Source of the DNA: Thermocrinis minervae
GTDB taxonomy: Bacteria; Aquificota; Aquificia; Aquificales; Aquificaceae
Reading direction: 5' to 3'
Assembly (NCBI RefSeq): GCF_900142435.1
Contig: NZ_LT670846.1
Location: 1,020,750-1,084,749, forward strand
Length of the DNA stretch: 64,000 bases
Numbering within the stretch: the stretch's first letter is position 1; every line of letters starts with the position of its first letter. A program made the translations under genes and the position numbers. Under the pieces are notes generated by a model, which worked only from the letters and a program-made list of their open reading frames with translations, was not told where the DNA came from and did not search any database. This document shows, piece by piece, positions 36,551-47,203 of this stretch.

Positions 36551-38305
36551 TTTCACAGGCTGTTTTACGGTGAGGCACTCTCTAAAGACTACGTAAGGAC
36601 ATTCCTTTGCACAATATTCGTGGTCTAGCCTACTGAAAAGCTCTCCTATGGACTGTCCCTTTGAGTCAAAGATAAGATTCGCATCAACAAGTTTATCTAT
36701 ATTTAACCTCTCCATCAGGGGATAAATGTCGCATCCTATGTTGGCAAGAGATACTTTTACTCCAAGCTTTTGGATCTCATCCACCATCTTCATGAAGTTC
36801 TGTGCTCCCGATGCATCCATGTAGTTTACAGCTTCCATGTCTACAAGGACGTACTTTAGTGGTGTGCTCTCCTTTCTTTTCTTTACAAGATTCACGATGT
36901 ACTCACCCACGTACTCGGCATTTCCAAAGTATATGGACATGTTAGGTCTTACATAGAGGATCTGTGGACACTCTGGGAGGTTTTCTCTCTGCGCGTTCAC
37001 AAAGGTGTTTGAAGCTGGGTTCCTTGTGAGGATTACTATCCTTGGGTACATGGTTTTGTAGACGAATATACCTAATGCCAAGATGATACCTAACAGTAGG
37101 GCAATCCATAGCTCTAAGACTAGCACACCTACAAAGGTAACGGCGGCTACTATACCATCTTCCTTGTTTACCTTGTAGAGCCTGTATATCTCCCAAGGCC
37201 TTATAAGATTTATCACAGCCATCATTACTATCACGGCAAGGGTTGCCTTTGGTAGGTACTTAAAGTACGGCGCTATGAAGAGGAGTGTAAGACCTACTGC
37301 GATAGAGGTGAAGACACTTGCCATAGGTGTTTTTGCACCCAGTTGAAAGTTGAGGGCAGACCTTGAGAAGGAACCACCTATAGGAAAACCCTTGAAGAAG
37401 GCACTCACTATGTTGGCAAGTCCCTGACCTATAAGCTCCTGGTTTACGTCCCACTTATCTCCCACTTGGTTTGCGAGCCTTTTTGCTATGGCTACAGCTT
37501 CCATAAGACCAAAGAAGGCAACCACCAAGGCACCCACGAAGACCGTGGATATCTCTTCAAGGCCATTTACCGGCAAGTAGAAAGAGGGTATACCTTGGGG
37601 TACATCACCCACAAGGGCAACGCCTTTCTCGTGTAGGTTGTAAAAGTAAGCTAGAAAGCTTGTTGAAAACACAGCTATAAGAGCTCCAGGTATGAGCGGA
37701 TGTATACGTCTTGACACATAGATGATCAAAAAGGAAATAAAACCCACTAGGAGGGTATAAGGATTTGTTAGGTGAATCTTTTTTAGGATGTCAAGTAGAA
37801 CTTCCACAACTATAGTGCTCTTTGCTGTCCTAAAACCCAGGAGGTGTTCCAACTGGCTTAAGGCTATGACTATGGCACCTGCGCTCACAAAGCCTGTTAT
37901 GACGGCCGGAGATATTAGGTCTACTATAGAACCGAGTCTAAAGAGACCTATGGAAAGGCGTATTATCCCAACCAGGAAGGCTAGCAAGGCCATCAGGTGT
38001 ATCCACTTCTCACTTCCGGGCTCTGCTATTCCGTACAGTACAGAGGCAGAAAGGAGAGCTGTCATTGCTACTGGACCTGTGGCCAGGAACCTAGAGCTGC
38101 CAAAGATTGCAGCCACGGCCACAGCTAGGAAGGAGGCGTAGAGACCATGTATGGCTGGCATCCTTGCGAGGAGTGCATAGGCCATAGATTGGGGTACTAA
38201 AACAGCTGCTACCGTAAGACCTGCTATAAGATCATCTCTGAGCTTTGATGCATTGTAGTCCTTAAGCCAATGTCTGATGGGAAGAGGATCAAACCTTATT
38301 TCCAT
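36545..38305 (-). CDS. SulP-family anion transporter with STAS domain
   Basis: A 586-residue SLC26/SulP carrier. The N-terminus has PQSMAYALLARMPAIHGLYASF, and about 12 transmembrane helices are followed by a cytoplasmic STAS domain (about residues 440-560) with MDASGAQNF. It ends with a cysteine-containing tail (CAKECPYVVFREC). SulP proteins move sulfate and other anions. It is the last gene of the sHdr operon (10-bp overlap with rdgB), so sulfate or sulfite movement during sulfur oxidation is a reasonable inference; direction is unknown. Confidence 0.9.
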   Translation of the reverse strand: MEIRFDPLPIRHWLKDYNASKLRDDLIAGLTVAAVLVPQSMAYALLARMPAIHGLYASFLAVAVAAIFGSSRFLATGPVAMTALLSASVLYGIAEPGSEKWIHLMALLAFLVGIIRLSIGLFRLGSIVDLISPAVITGFVSAGAIVIALSQLEHLLGFRTAKSTIVVEVLLDILKKIHLTNPYTLLVGFISFLIIYVSRRIHPLIPGALIAVFSTSFLAYFYNLHEKGVALVGDVPQGIPSFYLPVNGLEEISTVFVGALVVAFFGLMEAVAIAKRLANQVGDKWDVNQELIGQGLANIVSAFFKGFPIGGSFSRSALNFQLGAKTPMASVFTSIAVGLTLLFIAPYFKYLPKATLAVIVMMAVINLIRPWEIYRLYKVNKEDGIVAAVTFVGVLVLELWIALLLGIILALGIFVYKTMYPRIVILTRNPASNTFVNAQRENLPECPQILYVRPNMSIYFGNAEYVGEYIVNLVKKRKESTPLKYVLVDMEAVNYMDASGAQNFMKMVDEIQKLGVKVSLANIGCDIYPLMERLNIDKLVDANLIFDSKGQSIGELFSRLDHEYCAKECPYVVFRECLTVKQPVKL

Positions 38306-38889
38306 CTTAGTACCTCCAGAAGTCTCGTCAAGGCTCTCCTTCTATGCGATATACGGTTTTTTTCCTCTGGTGGTAGCTCGGCCATGGTCTTGTTGTAGCC
38401 TTCTGGTATAAACACAGGATCGTAACCAAAACCGTAAGACCCCTTTTCCTCTCTACTGATAGCACCTTCACACCTCCCTTCTGCAAAGACACCTCCATCT
38501 CCTATGTACAAAACAACGCAAGCGTAGTAATAAGCTCTTCTGTCTTCTACGTTCTCCATCAGTCTAAGAAGCTTCTTTATGTTTGCTCTATCTGGGTCCT
38601 TGCCGTGTTCTACACCGCCAAAGTCTATGCTATGAAACCTGGAGGAGTATATACCTGGATAACCTCCCAAAGAAGGTACCACAAGCCCTGAATCCTCTGC
38701 AAGGGTTGGCAATCTGTACCTTTGATAGTAGGCTCTTGCCTTTAGGTATGCGTTCTCTAAAAAGGTTGTCCCTGTCTCTTCAACCTCTAAGGTCTCCTCT
38801 GGCAGCTCAAGCTCAAAGCCATAAGGGCTTAGTATATCCATAAGCTCCCTCAACTTCTTTCTGTTAGAAGTAGCTACCAGAATCTTCAT
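38296..38889 (-). CDS. rdgB: XTP/dITP pyrophosphatase (RdgB/HAM1)
   Basis: A 197-residue house-cleaning enzyme that hydrolyses deaminated purine nucleoside triphosphates. The N-terminal TSNRKKLREL motif, AEDSGLVVP and GYDPVFIPEGY are all present. It is wedged between the radical SAM gene (4-bp overlap) and sulP (10-bp overlap) inside the sHdr operon, where no functional link to sulfur is obvious. Confidence 0.95.
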   Translation of the reverse strand: MKILVATSNRKKLRELMDILSPYGFELELPEETLEVEETGTTFLENAYLKARAYYQRYRLPTLAEDSGLVVPSLGGYPGIYSSRFHSIDFGGVEHGKDPDRANIKKLLRLMENVEDRRAYYYACVVLYIGDGGVFAEGRCEGAISREEKGSYGFGYDPVFIPEGYNKTMAELPPEEKNRISHRRRALTRLLEVLRWK

Positions 38890-39905
38890 AAAGGCATGAA
38901 AACCGTAGAACAGCAGTTGGGAGACACTACAGGTTGGAGCCCTAGGGACTTAGCGTAGGTGACTATACCCTCAGCAGGGAAGGTGATACCATTTACTCCA
39001 GCCACGAGTGCATAGAAGTCTAGCTTTACCCTTTCAGGACCAGCAGGCCTTGCACAACCAATAACTATGGGCCTGTTGGGTATGGCTCTTCTAGCGTAAA
39101 GTATCACACGAGCGGACTCTTCGGCGGAAGGTGGTGGTAAAAGCTGAAACCTAGCTTTCCCAAAGTAAGGCATTATCACCACGAGAACGAGAGCAGCTGG
39201 TTCATACTCCGCTATAATGTCTATAGCTCTGTACTCTCCTTTTACCCGTCCATAGTGTAGCCCTATTATGACGTGAGGAACTATGTTGTGCCCGTAATCC
39301 TTTAGAATCCTCAAAGACTCCTTGTAATCCTTCACGCTTCTGTGCGGAAGCTTGTAAACCTGAGCTATGGTCTCATCGTCTCCTATTATGTCAAGCAGTA
39401 CGGCATCAACACCTACCTCTTTTAAACCTTTGGCTTGTATCTCATCCACAAGGCCTACATGACAGGTAAGCAGGAGTCCAAGCTCATCCTTTATCCTTTT
39501 CATGACATCGAAGAAGGGATCAAGGGGAACCCTTCCATCTTTATCAGAACCACCAGATATGAGGATCCCATCTATTCCTTTGGATTTAAGATCATTGGCC
39601 ACTTTCCAAAGTTCCTCCGGCGTGGTTGCAGGGATCATATGCCAGAGTATCTTAGACGCACAGTGGTCGCACATAAGCTCACAGTTCCTTCCCGTTATGG
39701 ATATGTCTACAAACTTTGGCCCTGTGGTAACCTTAAAGTCTTCCACCTCGTAGTGTTTAAAACCAGGACTATGGAAGAAAACCTTATTTCCAAAATTCCT
39801 TTCTCTTATTAAAAACCCTTCCTCAAGCTCCCTTAATAATTTCTCATCTACCTCTAAGTCTTCTAAGAAGGAGGGGAGATGCCCCTCCAAAATCCTTAGC
39901 CGCAT
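38886..39905 (-). CDS. Radical SAM enzyme, candidate LipS1/LipS2-type lipoyl synthase
   Basis: A 339-residue radical SAM protein with the cluster motif C75-x3-C79-x2-C82. Extra cysteines lie at C284 (GCARPAG) and C331-C332 (NCCS), candidates for a second Fe-S cluster or sulfur donor site. Published work on LipS1/LipS2 pairs shows that two radical SAM proteins, often encoded with sHdr and lbpA genes, insert sulfur into octanoyl-LbpA. The 10-bp overlap with lbpA2 makes that role likely here. I cannot tell LipS1 from LipS2 by eye, and no partner or sLpl ligase lies in the window. Confidence 0.72.
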   Translation of the reverse strand: MRLRILEGHLPSFLEDLEVDEKLLRELEEGFLIRERNFGNKVFFHSPGFKHYEVEDFKVTTGPKFVDISITGRNCELMCDHCASKILWHMIPATTPEELWKVANDLKSKGIDGILISGGSDKDGRVPLDPFFDVMKRIKDELGLLLTCHVGLVDEIQAKGLKEVGVDAVLLDIIGDDETIAQVYKLPHRSVKDYKESLRILKDYGHNIVPHVIIGLHYGRVKGEYRAIDIIAEYEPAALVLVVIMPYFGKARFQLLPPPSAEESARVILYARRAIPNRPIVIGCARPAGPERVKLDFYALVAGVNGITFPAEGIVTYAKSLGLQPVVSPNCCSTVFMPL

Positions 39906-40342
39906 TTGATGCCCTTCTCGTTCATCACCTTGGTAAGAGCTTCAACGGCTGCCTGACCCTTCAGAAGGCTGTTTACTTCATCTGGATTGGTGGGTTTTAT
40001 CTTGGCTATCCACCCTTGTCCGTAAGGATCATCGTTGACCAGAGCTGGGTTAGCCTTTAGAGCTTCATTTATCTCTACTATCTCACCAGATAGAGGTGAA
40101 GGCACTGGTCCGACCCACTTCCCGCTCTCTATGGTAGCTACGCTCTTGCGTCTTTCTACAGTCTTGCCAGGTTTCTTGGGTGTGTAAGCCACAAGCCTTC
40201 CTGCCATAGCAGCAGCTACAGAAGTGAGACCTATAGTATAGGTCCCGTCTCCGTTGTCTCTAGCCCAAGTGAAGGCATTAGCTTGGGCATCTACATCGTA
40301 AAGAAGATCCTCCGGTATGTTGCAACCGTTCACTACAGCCAT
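39896..40342 (-). CDS. lbpA: Lipoate-binding protein LbpA (second copy)
   Basis: A 148-residue GcvH-like protein of the LbpA type. The lipoyl lysine is K75 in ESGKWVGP, where true GcvH has ESVK. It shares the N-terminal motif NGCxIPxDL with the other copy. It ends in KCG, so a cysteine is the penultimate residue. LbpA is the lipoate carrier required for sHdr-dependent sulfur oxidation. There are no glycine-cleavage genes around it. A GGGGG ribosome-binding site precedes the ATG. Confidence 0.9.
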   Translation of the reverse strand: MAVVNGCNIPEDLLYDVDAQANAFTWARDNGDGTYTIGLTSVAAAMAGRLVAYTPKKPGKTVERRKSVATIESGKWVGPVPSPLSGEIVEINEALKANPALVNDDPYGQGWIAKIKPTNPDEVNSLLKGQAAVEALTKVMNEKGIKCG

Positions 40343-40367: not shown

Positions 40368-40757
40368 TTAGAAGATCAATACCTTATCGTATTCTAAAGC
40401 ACGTATAGCAAACTCACTAGCAGGAACTATATCATCTAGCTCAGGTATGAGGTCTTCCTTGGTGAGTCCTAAAGAATCCACCGCCTGTTTACAAGATAGG
40501 AACCTCACCCCTGCCTGCTTTGCATCCTTCATGAAATCGTAGACAGTCTTAAGTTTCTTACCGTTTGTAGAAAGGCAATTGGGTTCTCCTGGCACTATCC
40601 TCTCTGCTACTCCTTTTCTGAGAAGATTGGTACCATCCATGTTAAAAAACATCTCCACTTCTGCCTCGTTGGCAGCCAAGAGTGCAGCTATGTAAAAGGG
40701 TGCAGCACATCTCCACGGAGTTCTTGGGCCGCTGGTCATAAGGATTATCACCTTCAT
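40368..40757 (-). CDS. DsrE-family sulfur carrier (third copy)
   Basis: A 129-residue DsrE/F-fold protein. It opens MKVIILMTSGP; the conserved sulfur-carrying cysteine position is C89 (RFLSCKQAV), with extra C17 and C61. DsrE proteins hold persulfide and pass it between TusA-like carriers. It lies between the CATC thioredoxin-like gene (4-bp overlap) and lbpA2, apart from the two DsrE genes at the head of the operon, so it may serve the LbpA branch. Confidence 0.82.
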   Translation of the reverse strand: MKVIILMTSGPRTPWRCAAPFYIAALLAANEAEVEMFFNMDGTNLLRKGVAERIVPGEPNCLSTNGKKLKTVYDFMKDAKQAGVRFLSCKQAVDSLGLTKEDLIPELDDIVPASEFAIRALEYDKVLIF

Positions 40758-41011
40758 GACTCTATAGCCTTCCTTGCCTCAGCTTCCTCCGGTACTCCTA
40801 CAAAGGTAAGCTTTCCGTCTATTATGGTGGAAGGGACACTCCTTACCATCAGCTTTTTTGCCCACATCCTGCCTTCCGGCTGAGCTACATCAAGGACCTC
40901 ATACTTAAACCCATACTCTTGCTGTAATTTTCTCCAGAGCTGATCAGCATCGGGACACGTAGCACACCACTGAGACACCAACAGTATCACATGTTTGTCC
41001 TTTGCACCCAT
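40754..41011 (-). CDS. Thioredoxin/glutaredoxin-like protein with CATC active site
   Basis: An 85-residue mini thioredoxin-fold protein with C16-A-T-C19 and the cis-proline motif SVPSTII. ATG at 41011 overlaps the lbpA1 stop as TGATG, with GAGGTG 8 nt upstream, so it is preferred to an upstream ATG at 41041. It may reduce disulfides or persulfides on the adjacent DsrE or LbpA proteins; that is inference from position. Confidence 0.8.
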   Translation of the reverse strand: MGAKDKHVILLVSQWCATCPDADQLWRKLQQEYGFKYEVLDVAQPEGRMWAKKLMVRSVPSTIIDGKLTFVGVPEEAEARKAIES

Positions 41012-41490
41012 CACGTACACCTCATACAGATTATGTCCCACTCATCTATGTACTTTTTCATCTCCTCAATGGCCTGAGGTCCATATAAAAGGTCCTTTAT
41101 ATCTCTTTCCAGGTTTGTGGGTTTCATCTTGACTATCCAACCTTCTCCGTAGGGATCGTAGTTTATTATATCTGGCTGTTCCAGTACTTTCTGGTTGGCT
41201 TCCACTACTTCTCCTTCCACGAGTGCGTTGATAGGTCCAGCCCATTTACCGCTTTCCAAAGAAGCCACTGGCTTACCCTTCTGTATATGTTTCCCAGGAC
41301 TCTTTATCCGGGCGTGGAGAAGCCTTCCAGCCCTGACCTGACCTACGTCTGTAAGACCCATGGTTACAGTACCATCGTCATTTATCCTTAACCAGGTCTG
41401 CGTCTCTATCTCATAATAGAGGTCTAGCGGGATTATACACCCGTTGTACTCCCACTCATTGGTAGGGCCTTGAGCTTCCACCACACCCAT
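41011..41490 (-). CDS. lbpA: Lipoate-binding protein LbpA (first copy)
   Basis: A 159-residue LbpA with the lipoyl lysine K82 in ESGKWAGP, the NGCIIPLDL motif and a C-terminal extension ending C155-M-R-C158-T. The terminal CxxC is not part of the GcvH fold and could be redox active. It lies 9 bp after sHdrB2 with a good ribosome-binding site (GAGGTGG). It probably carries the lipoate that works with the sHdr complex. Confidence 0.92.
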   Translation of the reverse strand: MGVVEAQGPTNEWEYNGCIIPLDLYYEIETQTWLRINDDGTVTMGLTDVGQVRAGRLLHARIKSPGKHIQKGKPVASLESGKWAGPINALVEGEVVEANQKVLEQPDIINYDPYGEGWIVKMKPTNLERDIKDLLYGPQAIEEMKKYIDEWDIICMRCT

Positions 41491-41499
41491 ATTACCACC

Positions 41500-42459
41500 T
41501 CATACAAGACCGAGTCTCTTCAAAACAGGTAGAGGGTCAGAGAGATTGTCCTTTAGCTTTACGTCGTTGGCACTGTAGCCAAATGCTATACCTAACAGTT
41601 GGGTAAAGTAGGCTGCGGGTACATCCACGTCTGGTACACCTTTCATCATAAGCCTATGCCTGTACATCTCAAGGGATGCATGACACAAAGGACATTCCGT
41701 GGCTATTATGTCAGCTCCGTTCCTCTTAGCTGTTTGGAGTATCATCATCACGAACTTTTCAGACACCAATTCATCAGACAGAGAGTGTGGCCCACCACAG
41801 CATTGGGTGTGCATGGGTTCAAACTCCACACTCTGAGCGCCGGCAGCCTCAAGAAGAGCGTTCATGTAGTACGGATGTTCATCGTCATCTGCAGTTTCCC
41901 TCTTCCTTGGCCTGGCTTCTTCCGGTTGACCACCGGCATGGGCGTAAGTCCTGGCGTAGAAGTGAGGTCTTGTGTACAGACAGCCATAGTAGTTGGCCAC
42001 CTTAAGACCTTTAAGAGGTTTCTTCGTTTTCTCTTTCACCTTCTGGGGACCGGCTTCGTTGTAGAACCACTCAAGGATATGGTAAGTGTGGGGTATTCTA
42101 TCCAGTGGATCTACTCCACCTTCTTTTAGGAGTGCGTTAACCTTCTCTAAAAGGGATTGATCTGTTTCCAAGAAGTACTCTGCTCTCTGGAGGGAGAAGG
42201 AGCATCCGTTACACGGAGCCACTATAACGTCGTGGCCTTGCTTCCTTGCCAAGGACATATTCCTGGCGTTAAGAAGTATAGTTCCCATAAAGGTCACGTT
42301 CTTAGACTCCATAGCACCACAGCAGTTGTAGTCTTCCAGGTAGTCTAGCTCAAGACCTAGTTCTCTGGCCACTATCCTCGTTGAGACATCGTACGCTCTT
42401 GCTGCACCTTCCAAAGAACAACCAGGGTAGTATGCCACTCTCTTACCTATAACACCCAT
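41500..42459 (-). CDS. hdrB2: sHdrB2, CCG-domain subunit of the sulfur-oxidizing Hdr-like complex
   Basis: A 319-residue protein with two complete CCG cysteine motifs: C14, C46-C47, C83-x2-C86, and C160, C220-C221, C256-x2-C259. In methanogen HdrB these motifs hold non-cubane [4Fe-4S] clusters that act on disulfides. As part of sHdr it is expected to handle sulfane sulfur or lipoate-bound sulfur in the cytoplasm. It is encoded 12 bp after sHdrC2. Confidence 0.92.
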   Translation of the reverse strand: MGVIGKRVAYYPGCSLEGAARAYDVSTRIVARELGLELDYLEDYNCCGAMESKNVTFMGTILLNARNMSLARKQGHDVIVAPCNGCSFSLQRAEYFLETDQSLLEKVNALLKEGGVDPLDRIPHTYHILEWFYNEAGPQKVKEKTKKPLKGLKVANYYGCLYTRPHFYARTYAHAGGQPEEARPRKRETADDDEHPYYMNALLEAAGAQSVEFEPMHTQCCGGPHSLSDELVSEKFVMMILQTAKRNGADIIATECPLCHASLEMYRHRLMMKGVPDVDVPAAYFTQLLGIAFGYSANDVKLKDNLSDPLPVLKRLGLV

Positions 42460-42471
42460 AGTTACACCTCC

Positions 42472-43230
42472 TTACTTTAAGGCACCTTCTTGTTCCATAA
42501 CCTTCCTAAGGACTTGTTTGAACCTATTCCAGTTCTTTGTTCTTGGATGGAACAGCATATGCTTTGCGTTCAGAACTAGAAAGCTTATGTTCATAGACTT
42601 TAAAGGCTTTAGAGCAAGCTGCTTTAGCCATTCTGGAGCTTCACCCATAAAAGGTATGGGTTTCTTGAGTATGGGGTCTTTAAACAGCTTGTAACCTTGC
42701 TTTTCTATCCATCCAAAGAGGAGTTCTCCATCCTCTATCCTTCCGTACTCTAGCACAGACTCGGTGAAGAACTTATCAAACTTCTTGGAAGGATACTCTT
42801 CTATAAGGCCTCTCTTGGCCATTACCTTGAGTATAGCCTTGAGGACTTCTTCTACAAGGACTCCCTTCGGGCACCTGTGTGTACACTTGTGACAAGAGAC
42901 ACATCTCCACATAACGTCGGCTCTCTTCTGGAGCTCGTCTACAAGCCCGAGCCTCGCCAGGTAGATAAAATGTCTTGGGTTGTACCTCTCATCCCAGTAA
43001 TTGTGGACTGGACAGGACGCTGTACAGTAAGAGCACTGGTAACATTGGTTTATGGTCTTGCCTTCTGGCTGGTTTAGTACCTCTTTACCGAAGTCCAGGT
43101 CGTAGTCGTTTATAACCCTGGGCAGGATTATAAGGTTCCAGTCTCCAGAAACGTCAACACCATCTATGACGAGTCTCTCTTTCCTTAAAATCCTCTCCGG
43201 TTCTACAAGACTTTTTTCATGTATAGCCAT
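42472..43230 (-). CDS. hdrC2: sHdrC2, ferredoxin-like subunit
   Basis: A 252-residue electron-transfer subunit with two [4Fe-4S] motifs: C63-x2-C66-x2-C69-x3-C73 and C110-x2-C113-x2-C116-x3-C120. It probably wires sHdrB2 to the flavin subunit. It follows the hyp gene by 3 bp. Confidence 0.93.
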   Translation of the reverse strand: MAIHEKSLVEPERILRKERLVIDGVDVSGDWNLIILPRVINDYDLDFGKEVLNQPEGKTINQCYQCSYCTASCPVHNYWDERYNPRHFIYLARLGLVDELQKRADVMWRCVSCHKCTHRCPKGVLVEEVLKAILKVMAKRGLIEEYPSKKFDKFFTESVLEYGRIEDGELLFGWIEKQGYKLFKDPILKKPIPFMGEAPEWLKQLALKPLKSMNISFLVLNAKHMLFHPRTKNWNRFKQVLRKVMEQEGALK

Positions 43231-43233
43231 GGT

Positions 43234-43968
43234 CTACACCTCCAAAAGGTCTTCATTTCTAACTATACCTAAAAGCCTCCTTGCCATAACACCGGCAGGA
43301 GGGAAAAAGCCCTTTGCACTGTGCATGGTAGAAAGAGTCATATAGTCCACGTACGTGGCGTATATCATGGCAAGGAACATGTCTACAAAGAGGTAACCTT
43401 TGGCTTTTATACCAAAGTCCAGGAGCTTTTCCTGAATCTGCTTGTATATCTGCTCAAACTCTTCGTAGGTTTCTCCGTACATATGTCTCTTTGGTGGCTC
43501 CTCTTTTAAGAAGACTACCGCGCCGCTTTCTGACTCTGGATCCCATATCCAGCTAGTCCATAGTACGTACTTGTCTGGGAAGGTAAAGTGTAAAAGTTCT
43601 GATGCTATGTCCCTTGCCATCTTTTTGTCTACACCCCTTATCTCTTTTACGAACTTCTCCACCCTCTCTTCCCATGTGTTTGCCTTCCCGTAGAGAAGGT
43701 CGCTTATAGCTTTCTTTAGCCTGTCTATTCCTGTCTCTTCTAAGATCTTCTTCCTTCTTCTCCTGCTTGCAAAGATGTGCTCTAATATCTTGTCTAAGTC
43801 TTCCTCTTTCAAGGATGGAAGTCTGTCTTTGCTTAGAAGTTCTTGAAAGAGGAGGGACTTGGCGAGGAGATCCTTGTAGAAATCTTGTATAAACTCCTCG
43901 CCTTCTGAGAAGATCTTTATGAGGTAATCCCTAACCAAAAAGTCGTCTAATGTGGTAACTTTTTTCAT
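43234..43968 (-). CDS. sHdr-associated hypothetical protein (Hyp)
   Basis: A 244-residue, mostly helical, soluble protein without cysteine. It occupies the position between sHdrA and sHdrC2 that is conserved in sHdr clusters and called Hyp. A stretch GVDKKMARDIASELLHFTFP with KYVLWTSW resembles a helix-hairpin-helix region, but this is a visual impression only. It overlaps sHdrA by 4 bp, so stoichiometric production with the complex is likely. The function is unknown. Confidence 0.85.
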   Translation of the reverse strand: MKKVTTLDDFLVRDYLIKIFSEGEEFIQDFYKDLLAKSLLFQELLSKDRLPSLKEEDLDKILEHIFASRRRRKKILEETGIDRLKKAISDLLYGKANTWEERVEKFVKEIRGVDKKMARDIASELLHFTFPDKYVLWTSWIWDPESESGAVVFLKEEPPKRHMYGETYEEFEQIYKQIQEKLLDFGIKAKGYLFVDMFLAMIYATYVDYMTLSTMHSAKGFFPPAGVMARRLLGIVRNEDLLEV

Positions 43969-45023
43969 ACGCCCACCTTTGCACCTACGTACATAGCAGC
44001 TTCAGCACCAGCTGCTTCGCCTTCAGCTATTGAAGACTCTATGTCTATCGGACCTTTGCATGCACCGGCTATGAATATACCTTCTCTGTTGGAGATGATG
44101 TTAGAGCCAGATTCTTCGGATGGTATCAGGAATTGGCTATCTGGATCTTGAGCTAGTCCGAGTATCTTGGCCACCTTCTTGGTACCAGCAGAAGGTTCCA
44201 TACCGAGTACTAACACCACAAGGTCCATGGGTACCTCAGAAGGCCTTTGAACTATAGTATCCTCGTGCTTTACTCTAAGCCTTCCATCAGCAGGGCTGTA
44301 AGTTATTTCCGCTATCCTACCTCTTACGTACCTGACACCGTACTTTTCCTGGGGTGCCCAGTAGAAAGGATACTCCCATGTACCATATGTCCTTACATCC
44401 ATGTAATAGCAGAAGACGTCCACGTCTGGGTAATGCTCCTTTATCTCAGAAGCCTGTAGTCCAGATAGAGCACATCCGTACCTACAACAGTGGACGTTTG
44501 TAACACCTAGCTGCCTGTCTCTGGAACCTACACAGAAGACAAAAGCTACCCTCTTGGGAAGCTGGCCGTTAGAAGGCCTGTAGAGCCTACCCTCACGGGA
44601 GAACATCTGCTCAAGCTCAAGGTTGGTTATGACATCTGGATATATTCCATAGCCGAGCTCTCCCTTTCTCCTCGGGTTAAAGTGTTCAAAACCTGTGGCG
44701 ACGACTATGGCTCCCACTTCATAGGTTTCACCATTGGAGAGCTTTACCTTAAAGTTTCCAGCTTCACCCTCGCAGGCTTCAAGCTCCGTGTTTAACAGCA
44801 CCTTTACGTTTTGGTTGTTCTCCACTTCCTTTATCATCGGTCCCAGAACCTGGGCAGGCTTTAACTTCCTCGGTATAAGTGTGTGGTAGTCTTCAAGGAT
44901 AGGCCTACCACCAAGCTTTCCCTCTTTCTCGATGAGTATGGTGGGCACTCCGAGCCTTCCCAGGACTTTGGCCGCACCTAGACCTGCAGGACCACCACCT
45001 ATTACCAACACAGACTTTGCCAT
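43965..45023 (-). CDS. hdrA: sHdrA, FAD-containing subunit
   Basis: A 352-residue flavoprotein with an N-terminal Rossmann motif (VIGGGPAGLGAA), then VVATGFEHF and a C-terminal FIAGACKGP FAD site. Cysteines C164, C179, C180 and C184 (CVGSRD and HCCRYGC) form the candidate Fe-S site. It is much shorter than methanogen HdrA (about 650), lacking the C-terminal ferredoxin domains, as is typical of sHdrA. AAGGAGGT precedes the ATG. Confidence 0.94.
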   Translation of the reverse strand: MAKSVLVIGGGPAGLGAAKVLGRLGVPTILIEKEGKLGGRPILEDYHTLIPRKLKPAQVLGPMIKEVENNQNVKVLLNTELEACEGEAGNFKVKLSNGETYEVGAIVVATGFEHFNPRRKGELGYGIYPDVITNLELEQMFSREGRLYRPSNGQLPKRVAFVFCVGSRDRQLGVTNVHCCRYGCALSGLQASEIKEHYPDVDVFCYYMDVRTYGTWEYPFYWAPQEKYGVRYVRGRIAEITYSPADGRLRVKHEDTIVQRPSEVPMDLVVLVLGMEPSAGTKKVAKILGLAQDPDSQFLIPSEESGSNIISNREGIFIAGACKGPIDIESSIAEGEAAGAEAAMYVGAKVGV

Positions 45024-45068: not shown

Positions 45069-46415
45069 TTAAGACTTAAAGAGTGGCATGTTGGCCGTAG
45101 CCGATGCCTTAGGCTTACCGGTAGATGTCTTGCTGTAAGGTTCATACAGGTCATACTCCTTGAAGAACTCCATCAGTTCGTCATACTTACCTGCCTTTTC
45201 AAGCTCGGCTATGTACTTGACTGTGTCTTCCCACTCTTTCCTTAGTTCCCTCCAGTTGGTTATTCCCATCTTCTCAAGGAGGGGCTCATACGCAGAGCAG
45301 TTCCAGTAGAGCTGAACCACTTTGAATGGATGTGCTCCACAAGCTAAGGCTGCAAACATGACGTCAGACATTACAGCAACAGGATAGTACATACCGTGTG
45401 CCTTTCCTATCCATTGGTTCTTTTCAAAGGTAGTTGTACATCCAGTGTCGTGGGTGATTATGACGTCGGCTTTTACCTCTTCATAGATGACCTTAAGCTT
45501 CCTCTGTATGGCGAAAGATCTAGTGAACTCCCTTTCCGTGAGGATGTGTCTAAAACCAAAACCACAGCAGTCATACCATGTGGAGTAGTCTACTACTTGA
45601 GCACCGAGAGCCTTCATAACAGCTGTGGAAGCTGCAGGCCTTTGACCGTTAAAGACTTCTGGGTCGTAAGGATAGTCATCGGCTATCATCTTCCAAGTGT
45701 GGCAAGCGTTGTGTATGGCCACTCTTACATTGGACACATCTATGCCTTTCGGCTTTCCTTCCTTCTCATAGAGTTCCTTTATCTTGAACCTCATAGCATG
45801 GACCCATTCGGAGTAGTGAACTATCTCCTGTGGTATAACGATCCTTCCATCTTCTGTGAGCCTTCCGAGCTTTTTAAGGATAGGTTTTACAGCATCCCTT
45901 AGCTCTTTGTTCATTATGAGCTGTTCCCTGGTCTCCTTGTAAGAACCGAAGGATGTTCCGCAATGTATTAGAGGATAGTAGCCTGTCTTCCAAGCTTGGT
46001 GCATGTTCCTGAGCCAGACAGCAGCGAGTGCTACTGGGTTGGATGTACCAGAACCGTGGTAGTTCCAAGCTGTGCATGAAGTTTGGTGAGGCTCGTTCAG
46101 GTAGTCAAGACCGAACTTGTTCATGAACCAGAATATGGAAGCGGGATAACCTGGTATGTTTCCACACTGACCACAGGACTTATGGTGCCAGAGCTTGTTG
46201 GTGGGTATAAGCTTTATCCTACCTGTCCTTGTGTAGACGGGTATAGGTTGGTGCTCTTCCGTTATCCTGTATATGAGTATTTCTCCCTTAGCCTCGAGCT
46301 CTTCCATCATCTCAAAGATATGATCGTAGTGGGCTGTTCCCATAGGCTCCTTCGTTGGGAAAGGAGGAACCTCTGGGTATTTCAAAATGCTGCTCTCTTT
46401 ATGTGCGTGCGCCAT
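45069..46415 (-). CDS. hdrB1: sHdrB1, divergent CCG-domain subunit
   Basis: A 448-residue protein. The second half has a CCG-type pattern C238, C283-C284, C326, but the final CxxC is replaced by GCTTTF, and C359 and C373 follow. The first half has C81-x2-C84, C114 and C152 in unusual contexts. It is longer than sHdrB2 and its cluster content may differ. It is translated from a strong site (TAGGAGGT). Confidence 0.9.
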   Translation of the reverse strand: MAHAHKESSILKYPEVPPFPTKEPMGTAHYDHIFEMMEELEAKGEILIYRITEEHQPIPVYTRTGRIKLIPTNKLWHHKSCGQCGNIPGYPASIFWFMNKFGLDYLNEPHQTSCTAWNYHGSGTSNPVALAAVWLRNMHQAWKTGYYPLIHCGTSFGSYKETREQLIMNKELRDAVKPILKKLGRLTEDGRIVIPQEIVHYSEWVHAMRFKIKELYEKEGKPKGIDVSNVRVAIHNACHTWKMIADDYPYDPEVFNGQRPAASTAVMKALGAQVVDYSTWYDCCGFGFRHILTEREFTRSFAIQRKLKVIYEEVKADVIITHDTGCTTTFEKNQWIGKAHGMYYPVAVMSDVMFAALACGAHPFKVVQLYWNCSAYEPLLEKMGITNWRELRKEWEDTVKYIAELEKAGKYDELMEFFKEYDLYEPYSKTSTGKPKASATANMPLFKS

Positions 46416-46465: not shown

Positions 46466-47203
46466 TTACTCCTCTTCTTCATAGAGCTCTTGGTATCTTT
46501 CCTCGTTCTCCTCCACTATGTCCATTATGACGTTGTAAAGGTTAGGGTCAAGCTTTTCTAGCATTTCGAAGATACCCGTCTCTCTCCATATGGTGTACAT
46601 CTCTATGGCAGTCTCCAAAGAAACTTCCCAAGCGGTCTTAACAGACTTACCCACGTCAAAGGGTATGGCGAGCCTCTTAGCTCTTAGGTTTTCCATGTTG
46701 TCAGCCATCTTGGGTCCCCAGTCTGGGAAAAAGTCAGGCTGAAGCATGTCAGCGGACAGCTGGTTTCCTGTGGTCATAACCTTCAGAAGAACACGGCCGT
46801 AAGGCTTTAGAAGGTCCTTAGTAGCTTCAAAGGCGTTCCTTACAGCAACCTCTCTCATTATGGCCACTAGTCCACCTGGGTTGTTCACGAAAGGACATCT
46901 GATCCAGCAGGTAAAACACTGAGAACATGCCCATATATACTCGTGCATCATATCGTAGAGGACTTCTACGTCATCTTCCAGGAACCTTTGGACTATCTCC
47001 CTCGGAGAGTAGTCAAAGAACCTGTTAGAGGGGCAAGAGGCGGTACATACACCACAGTTCAAGCAGCCAAATATATACTCTTTAAAACGGAAGTCGGATT
47101 TGACTTCCTCTATTACCCTAACCTTTTCTTCCCAAGGCACAGCCTTGGTTTTTTCAGATATGGGTAGGTTGTATCCGTATATATGCCCATCCATAACTGT
47201 CAC
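46466..47203 (-). CDS. hdrC1: sHdrC1, ferredoxin-like subunit
   Basis: A 245-residue protein with two [4Fe-4S] motifs: C47-x2-C50-x2-C53-x3-C57 and C93-x2-C96-x2-C99-x3-C103. It is the first structural gene of the sHdr complex, preceded by a 99-bp gap with a candidate internal promoter and operator. A strong AGGAGGTGA ribosome-binding site is present. Confidence 0.93.
   Translation of the reverse strand: MTVMDGHIYGYNLPISEKTKAVPWEEKVRVIEEVKSDFRFKEYIFGCLNCGVCTASCPSNRFFDYSPREIVQRFLEDDVEVLYDMMHEYIWACSQCFTCWIRCPFVNNPGGLVAIMREVAVRNAFEATKDLLKPYGRVLLKVMTTGNQLSADMLQPDFFPDWGPKMADNMENLRAKRLAIPFDVGKSVKTAWEVSLETAIEMYTIWRETGIFEMLEKLDPNLYNVIMDIVEENEERYQELYEEEE

Follow-up and report, generated by a model that had tools for sequence, protein, structure and literature searches.

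The window analyzed here comprises 64 kb of the Thermocrinis minervae genome (positions 1,020,750-1,084,749 of a single-contig genome of 1.37 Mb, with relatives in the Aquificaceae). An operon of the typical shdr-lbpA type runs through it in the order C1, B1, A, the protein in the sHdrH position, C2, B2, lbpA1, thioredoxin-like, dsrE-like, and lbpA2, and ends with a gene for a radical S-adenosylmethionine (SAM) enzyme. This last gene very probably encodes the LipS1 component of a bacterial two-protein lipoyl synthase, LipS1/LipS2, its activity being predicted from the sequence. The protein scored 237 bits against the NCBIfam LipS1 equivalog NF053742 (cut-off 230), with residues 63-332 aligned over profile positions 5-268, and a whole-genome profile search returned it as the only LipS1-family gene. 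The interval 38886-40342, which a first-pass annotation of this DNA had singled out, covers lbpA2 plus lipS1. The locus is composed of the following features.

38296..38889, minus strand, rdgB-like gene with a 4-bp overlap with lipS1 and a counterpart between lipS1 and lipS2 in Hydrogenobacter-type genomes; its product is presumably an XTP/dITP pyrophosphatase (rdgB), by family likeness
38886..39905, minus strand, lipS1, LipS1-family radical SAM lipoyl synthase of 339 residues with an ATG start (NCBIfam NF053742)
39896..40342, minus strand, lbpA2, GcvH-like lipoate-binding protein of 148 residues with the lipoyl site K75 and with C7 and C147 (PF01597, 143 bits)
40368..40757, minus strand, DsrE-like sulfurtransferase (PF02635, 56 bits)
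40754..41041, minus strand, thioredoxin-like protein (PF13192, 53 bits)
41011..41490, minus strand, lbpA1, GcvH-like lipoate-binding protein with the lipoyl site K82 (PF01597, 133 bits)
41500..42459, minus strand, sHdrB2-like subunit with CCG domain (PF02754, two stretches)
42472..43230, minus strand, sHdrC2-like [4Fe-4S] subunit (Fer4 families; HdrC-like)
43234..43968, minus strand, conserved protein in the sHdrH position, named from position only, with its order kept in relatives and no match in Pfam or NCBIfam
43965..45023, minus strand, sHdrA-like flavoprotein (HdrA2 model NF040770, 258 bits, below the cut-off of 1100)
45069..46415, minus strand, sHdrB1-like subunit (PF02754, 43 bits)
46466..47203, minus strand, sHdrC1-like subunit, resembling the C2 subunit, with its order kept in relatives

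The LipS1 protein contains the cysteines C75, C79, C82, C148, C284, C331, and C332; all but C148 had been listed in the first-pass annotation, which had also placed the lipoyl lysines of LbpA2 and LbpA1 correctly. The radical SAM motif C75-x3-C79-x2-C82 was invariant in the aligned relatives. Comparison with three homologues from metagenome-assembled genomes (MAGs) of Actinomycetes, Desulfobacterales, and Caldiserica (32-40% identity) showed C75/C79/C82, C284, C331, C332, H149, and H211 to be invariant. In TK2109, the LipS1 of Thermococcus kodakarensis, C27, C31, and C34 hold the radical SAM cluster, activity depends on C230, C276, and C277, and H159 is conserved throughout (PMC9585515). The present protein belongs to the same equivalog family, and its C75/C79/C82, C284, C331, and C332 follow as counterparts of these six essential cysteines in the same order and with nearly the same spacing; H211 corresponds to H159, all equivalences being offsets from the published numbering rather than an alignment with the TK2109 sequence. 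The N terminus, in contrast, is about 48 residues longer than in the archaeal protein. In a maximum-likelihood tree, LipS1 (100/99), LipS2 (99/98), and LipA (100/100) formed three separate groups. The gene was placed within LipS1 and not with LipS2, BioB, or LipA; the LipS1 clade also takes in the homologue encoded in a classic lipS1-slpl-lipT-lipS2 cluster. The reference LipS1 proteins were identified through gene context and similarity, and no characterized sequence was part of the tree. The LipA profile found other loci and not this gene, which lies outside the LipA clade. The proposal of a LipS-type enzyme, made from the letters alone, was thus borne out by profile and tree.

A second radical SAM protein of the pathway was found by a whole-genome search with the LipS2 profile at C1:140762-141877 (+). 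It has 371 residues, scored 206.8 bits over nearly the whole model, and grouped within the LipS2 clade (99/98). Its cysteines C55-x3-C59-x2-C62 and C104 agree with the T. kodakarensis LipS2, but the C276-x2-C279 pair of the archaeal protein is replaced by C310-x8-C319, a form that is also present in a Desulfobacterales LipS2. No LipS2 gene lies in the 64-kb window. The first-pass annotation had stated that only one such gene is present here and that the partner must be elsewhere or absent; the count holds, and "elsewhere" proved right, while "absent" did not. In Hydrogenobacter-type genomes (g4, MAGs L129 and L134) the order is lbpA2-lipS1-rdgB-lipS2, and the LipS2 encoded there is 89% identical to the one found here. 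In the present genome rdgB is still next after lipS1, and lipS2 adjoins two small genes and dnaE, as in g4 and g7. The lipS1-rdgB place and the lipS2-dnaE place thus correspond to two parts that are contiguous in g4. A joining event in g4 would be the more economical explanation, since more genera share the dnaE side. A conserved non-coding RNA between lipS2 and dnaE was considered and rejected: there was no Rfam match, and the interval is ordinary, being occupied by two small reading frames. The reverse split was observed in a Desulfobacterales MAG, where a GcvH/LbpA-like gene, Lpl, and lipS2 stand in a row (L170:6992-9552) and lipS1 is on another contig.

Two other identities were weighed for the gene. 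The predicted LipS1 fold is like those of biotin synthase, HydE, HydG, and PylB, and among proteins of solved structure BioB comes closest in both sequence and fold; in the structure model the mean predicted local distance difference test (pLDDT) score was 83, but the cluster loop 75-88 scored <50, too low for an assessment of cluster geometry. The gene could on these grounds encode another BioB-like radical SAM enzyme that is no lipoyl synthase. The BioB profile, however, matched at only 32.5 bits with a cut-off of 225, far from the score against the LipS1 profile; a true BioB is encoded at another place in the genome, and the auxiliary cysteine pattern is of the LipS1 type, which makes this identity highly improbable. 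The other possibility is an orphan LipS1 that has lost its partner and has either been recruited to a different role or works alongside LipA. It was suggested by the window without LipS2 and by a first scan of ten proteins, in which only BioB matched the LipS2 model, and weakly. The LipS2 orthologue in the same genome and the joint occurrence of both proteins in 30 of the 31 near-complete family genomes with LipS1 speak against it, and the whole-genome profile search and the tree leave it with next to no probability. The isolation of this LipS1 gene is only apparent, and annotation from the neighborhood only would misread a pathway scattered in this way.

Candidates for the remaining components were also found. 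The first-pass annotation had recommended looking elsewhere in the genome for sLpl(AB), and a 726-residue Lpl(AB) ligase fused to DUF116-like and CO_dh epsilon-like domains is encoded at C1:1271860-1274040 (-) (L096:1861-4041). A candidate LipT of 344 residues at C1:1139232-1140266 (-) shares 33-36% identity with the LipT encoded in the classic cluster. In an Actinomycetes MAG, LipS1, Lpl(AB), a LipT-like flavoprotein, and LipS2 are encoded in a row; their respective identities to the counterparts in the present genome, where the four genes occupy four places, are 40, 38, ~33, and 48%. The same four components, LipT here being a candidate, are known together with an shdr-lbpA operon from Hyphomicrobium and Thioalkalivibrio (PMC10332631, PMC6067878); in contrast to that pathway, only lipS1 stands in the operon here, lipS2, the ligase, and the lipT candidate are scattered, and the ligase carries DUF116 and a CO_dh-like domain as fusion partners. 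A 2018 paper described LipS1/S2, then called RadSAM1/2, in association with shdr-lbpA clusters of Aquificae and noted that their genes may be located in other parts of the genome (PMC6067878), and Aquificota were included in the LipS1/S2 tree of 2023 (PMC10332631). The present gene is therefore an ordinary member of the known LipS1/LipS2 system, which appears complete, with LipT as a candidate, but has scattered genes.

By analogy with these systems, the distant three-domain ligase would most likely load octanoate onto LbpA1 (at K82) and LbpA2 (at K75), and the LipS2 encoded far away would add sulfur at C8. LipS1 would then carry out the second step, insertion of the second sulfur at C6, using the radical SAM cluster on C75/C79/C82 and an auxiliary [4Fe-4S] cluster with C284, C331, C332, and probably H211 as ligands. 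Electrons may come from the LipT-like flavoprotein, and the finished lipoyl-LbpA would work in the sHdr sulfur-oxidation complex. Reaction order, substrates, and cluster roles are taken from published biochemistry on homologues; the present analysis identifies the genes, documents which residues are conserved, finds every part in the genome (LipT as a candidate), and establishes their co-distribution and synteny.

Several observations weigh against this assignment of the pathway. The score of LipS2 is below its curated cut-off of 270, the ligase is below the NCBIfam ligase cut-offs, the LipT candidate falls in the broad geranylgeranyl reductase family, so that its assignment is provisional, and the pathway genes are unlinked in this genome. 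No biochemical study of these proteins came to light. The LipS2 cut-off looks strict, since the LipS2 proteins of two other bacteria also scored below it (214 and 170 bits), one of them from a classic lipS1-slpl-lipT-lipS2 cluster. In addition, two LipA paralogues (C1:1192724-1193560, L026:1225-2061, and C1:296896-297711, L018:6097-6912), one of them below the lipA equivalog cut-off, as well as LipM-like and short Lpl-like proteins are encoded, which makes lipoylation of LbpA by LipA possible. LipA catalyzes the same overall reaction but forms a separate clade, has a different auxiliary cluster motif, and is unlinked to lbpA here; in bacteria it often co-occurs with LipS1/S2 (PMC10332631). The relation between the two routes was examined in 34 family genomes with a completeness of at least 95%. 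Of the 34, 31 have LipS1; each of the 31 also has the strong ligase class, and 30 have LipS2, which is the only one of the three missing in G043. The three genomes of genus g10 have no LipS1, LipS2, or strong ligase class, an absence that counts as one lineage-specific event and not as many independent ones. They retain shdr-lbpA1-trx-dsrE-lbpA2, with LipA ~7.6 kb past the lbpA2 end on the same contig, where it presumably serves LbpA. LipA as the main or redundant LbpA synthase, with LipS1/S2 as a minor or backup system, would agree with genus g10 and with the two LipA genes of this genome. Against this, no LipA match was obtained in five of the 31 near-complete genomes with LipS1 (G030, G032, G033, G034, and G044), two of which are single-contig and rated complete, and LipS1/S2 must therefore be able to manage the whole job there. 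We consider this reading of LipA unlikely for the present genome. Within one family either synthase alone can evidently suffice. For one and the same sHdr-LbpA system, one genus appears to depend solely on LipS1/S2 and another solely on LipA, a natural experiment through which the need of LbpA for a dedicated lipoylation pathway can be tested.

The junction of lbpA2 and lipS1 was compared across the family. The two genes share 10 bp at 39896-39905 (ATGCGGCTAA), as had been noted before; lbpA2 ends with ...AAA TGC GGC TAA and lipS1 begins with ATG CGG CTA.... The order lbpA2-lipS1 recurs throughout the family, with LipS1 identities of ~61-80%, so the adjacency is not due to chance. The exact 10-bp overlap was present in 13 of 29 distinct family junctions; two others have an 8-bp overlap, most of the rest have gaps of 22-51 bp, and the spacing reaches ~428 bp in Hydrogenobaculum-type genomes (genus labels of this kind, outside MAG titles, were assigned by inference). 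The overlap falls on the conserved C-terminal Cys-Gly codons of LbpA2, and part of its conservation may be simple protein conservation of this C terminus. The conserved feature is the gene order rather than the overlap. In this genome the overlap suggests translational coupling; assembly on the spot is not thereby demonstrated. By itself the overlap does not support the earlier reading of on-site lipoyl assembly, because a short overlap is no general feature of the junction. An Aquificaceae shdr-lbpA-lipS1 operon with 77-94% identity was also observed on contig L125 (RFFP01000018.1), which is filed as an Acidobacteria MAG and is probably misbinned.

The least-known part of the system is the Lpl-DUF116-CO_dh fusion. 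In the 726-residue protein the LplA-B_cat domain matched at residues 12-213 with 150.7 bits and the LplB-like domain at 262-343 with 39 bits (cut-off 65), and the DUF116 match was weak. A reading in which sLpl(AB) is missing from the genome was rejected; PF03099 misses the ligase and PF21948 finds it. Within the family, the fusion is shared by a number of genera. In the Hydrogenobaculum-type genome G030 (L180:2856-4859, L101:3282-4313), a fusion with a decayed ligase occurs together with a separate intact ligase: in the 667-residue fusion the motifs of the ligase part (RRITGGG and RPRND regions) are gone and the remainder is highly similar, and the separate ligase has 343 residues. A weak DUF116 match was likewise obtained with the ligase from the Actinomycetes MAG's classic cluster. 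None of the papers in the collection searched combines DUF116 with lipoate, and the structure prediction of the fusion (mean pLDDT 42) was not used. Tentatively, the fused DUF116 and CO_dh-like module might act as a built-in helper of lipoyl assembly in this family, for example in rebuilding the auxiliary Fe-S cluster of LipS1/S2 or in electron delivery, a role that we regard as possible but doubtful. The fusion is a concrete lead on helper proteins of LipS1/S2.

Further CO_dh-like proteins are encoded at C1:756542-757027 and 859626-860096 (frames of 193 and 254 residues) and are conserved also in the genus without LipS. The CO_dh domain as a substitute for LipT was weakened as an idea by these paralogues and by LipT candidates in the same genomes: each of the nine family genomes with LipS that were tested has a LipT candidate, and G060 yielded no close copy. 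A pair of oxidoreductase genes (L113:9752-11811, L099:3599-5767; families DHODB_Fe-S and Fer4_20/Pyr_redox_2 in L099), a possible electron supply, comes directly behind lbpA2 in g10; in Hydrogenobaculum-type genomes it comes directly behind lipS1.
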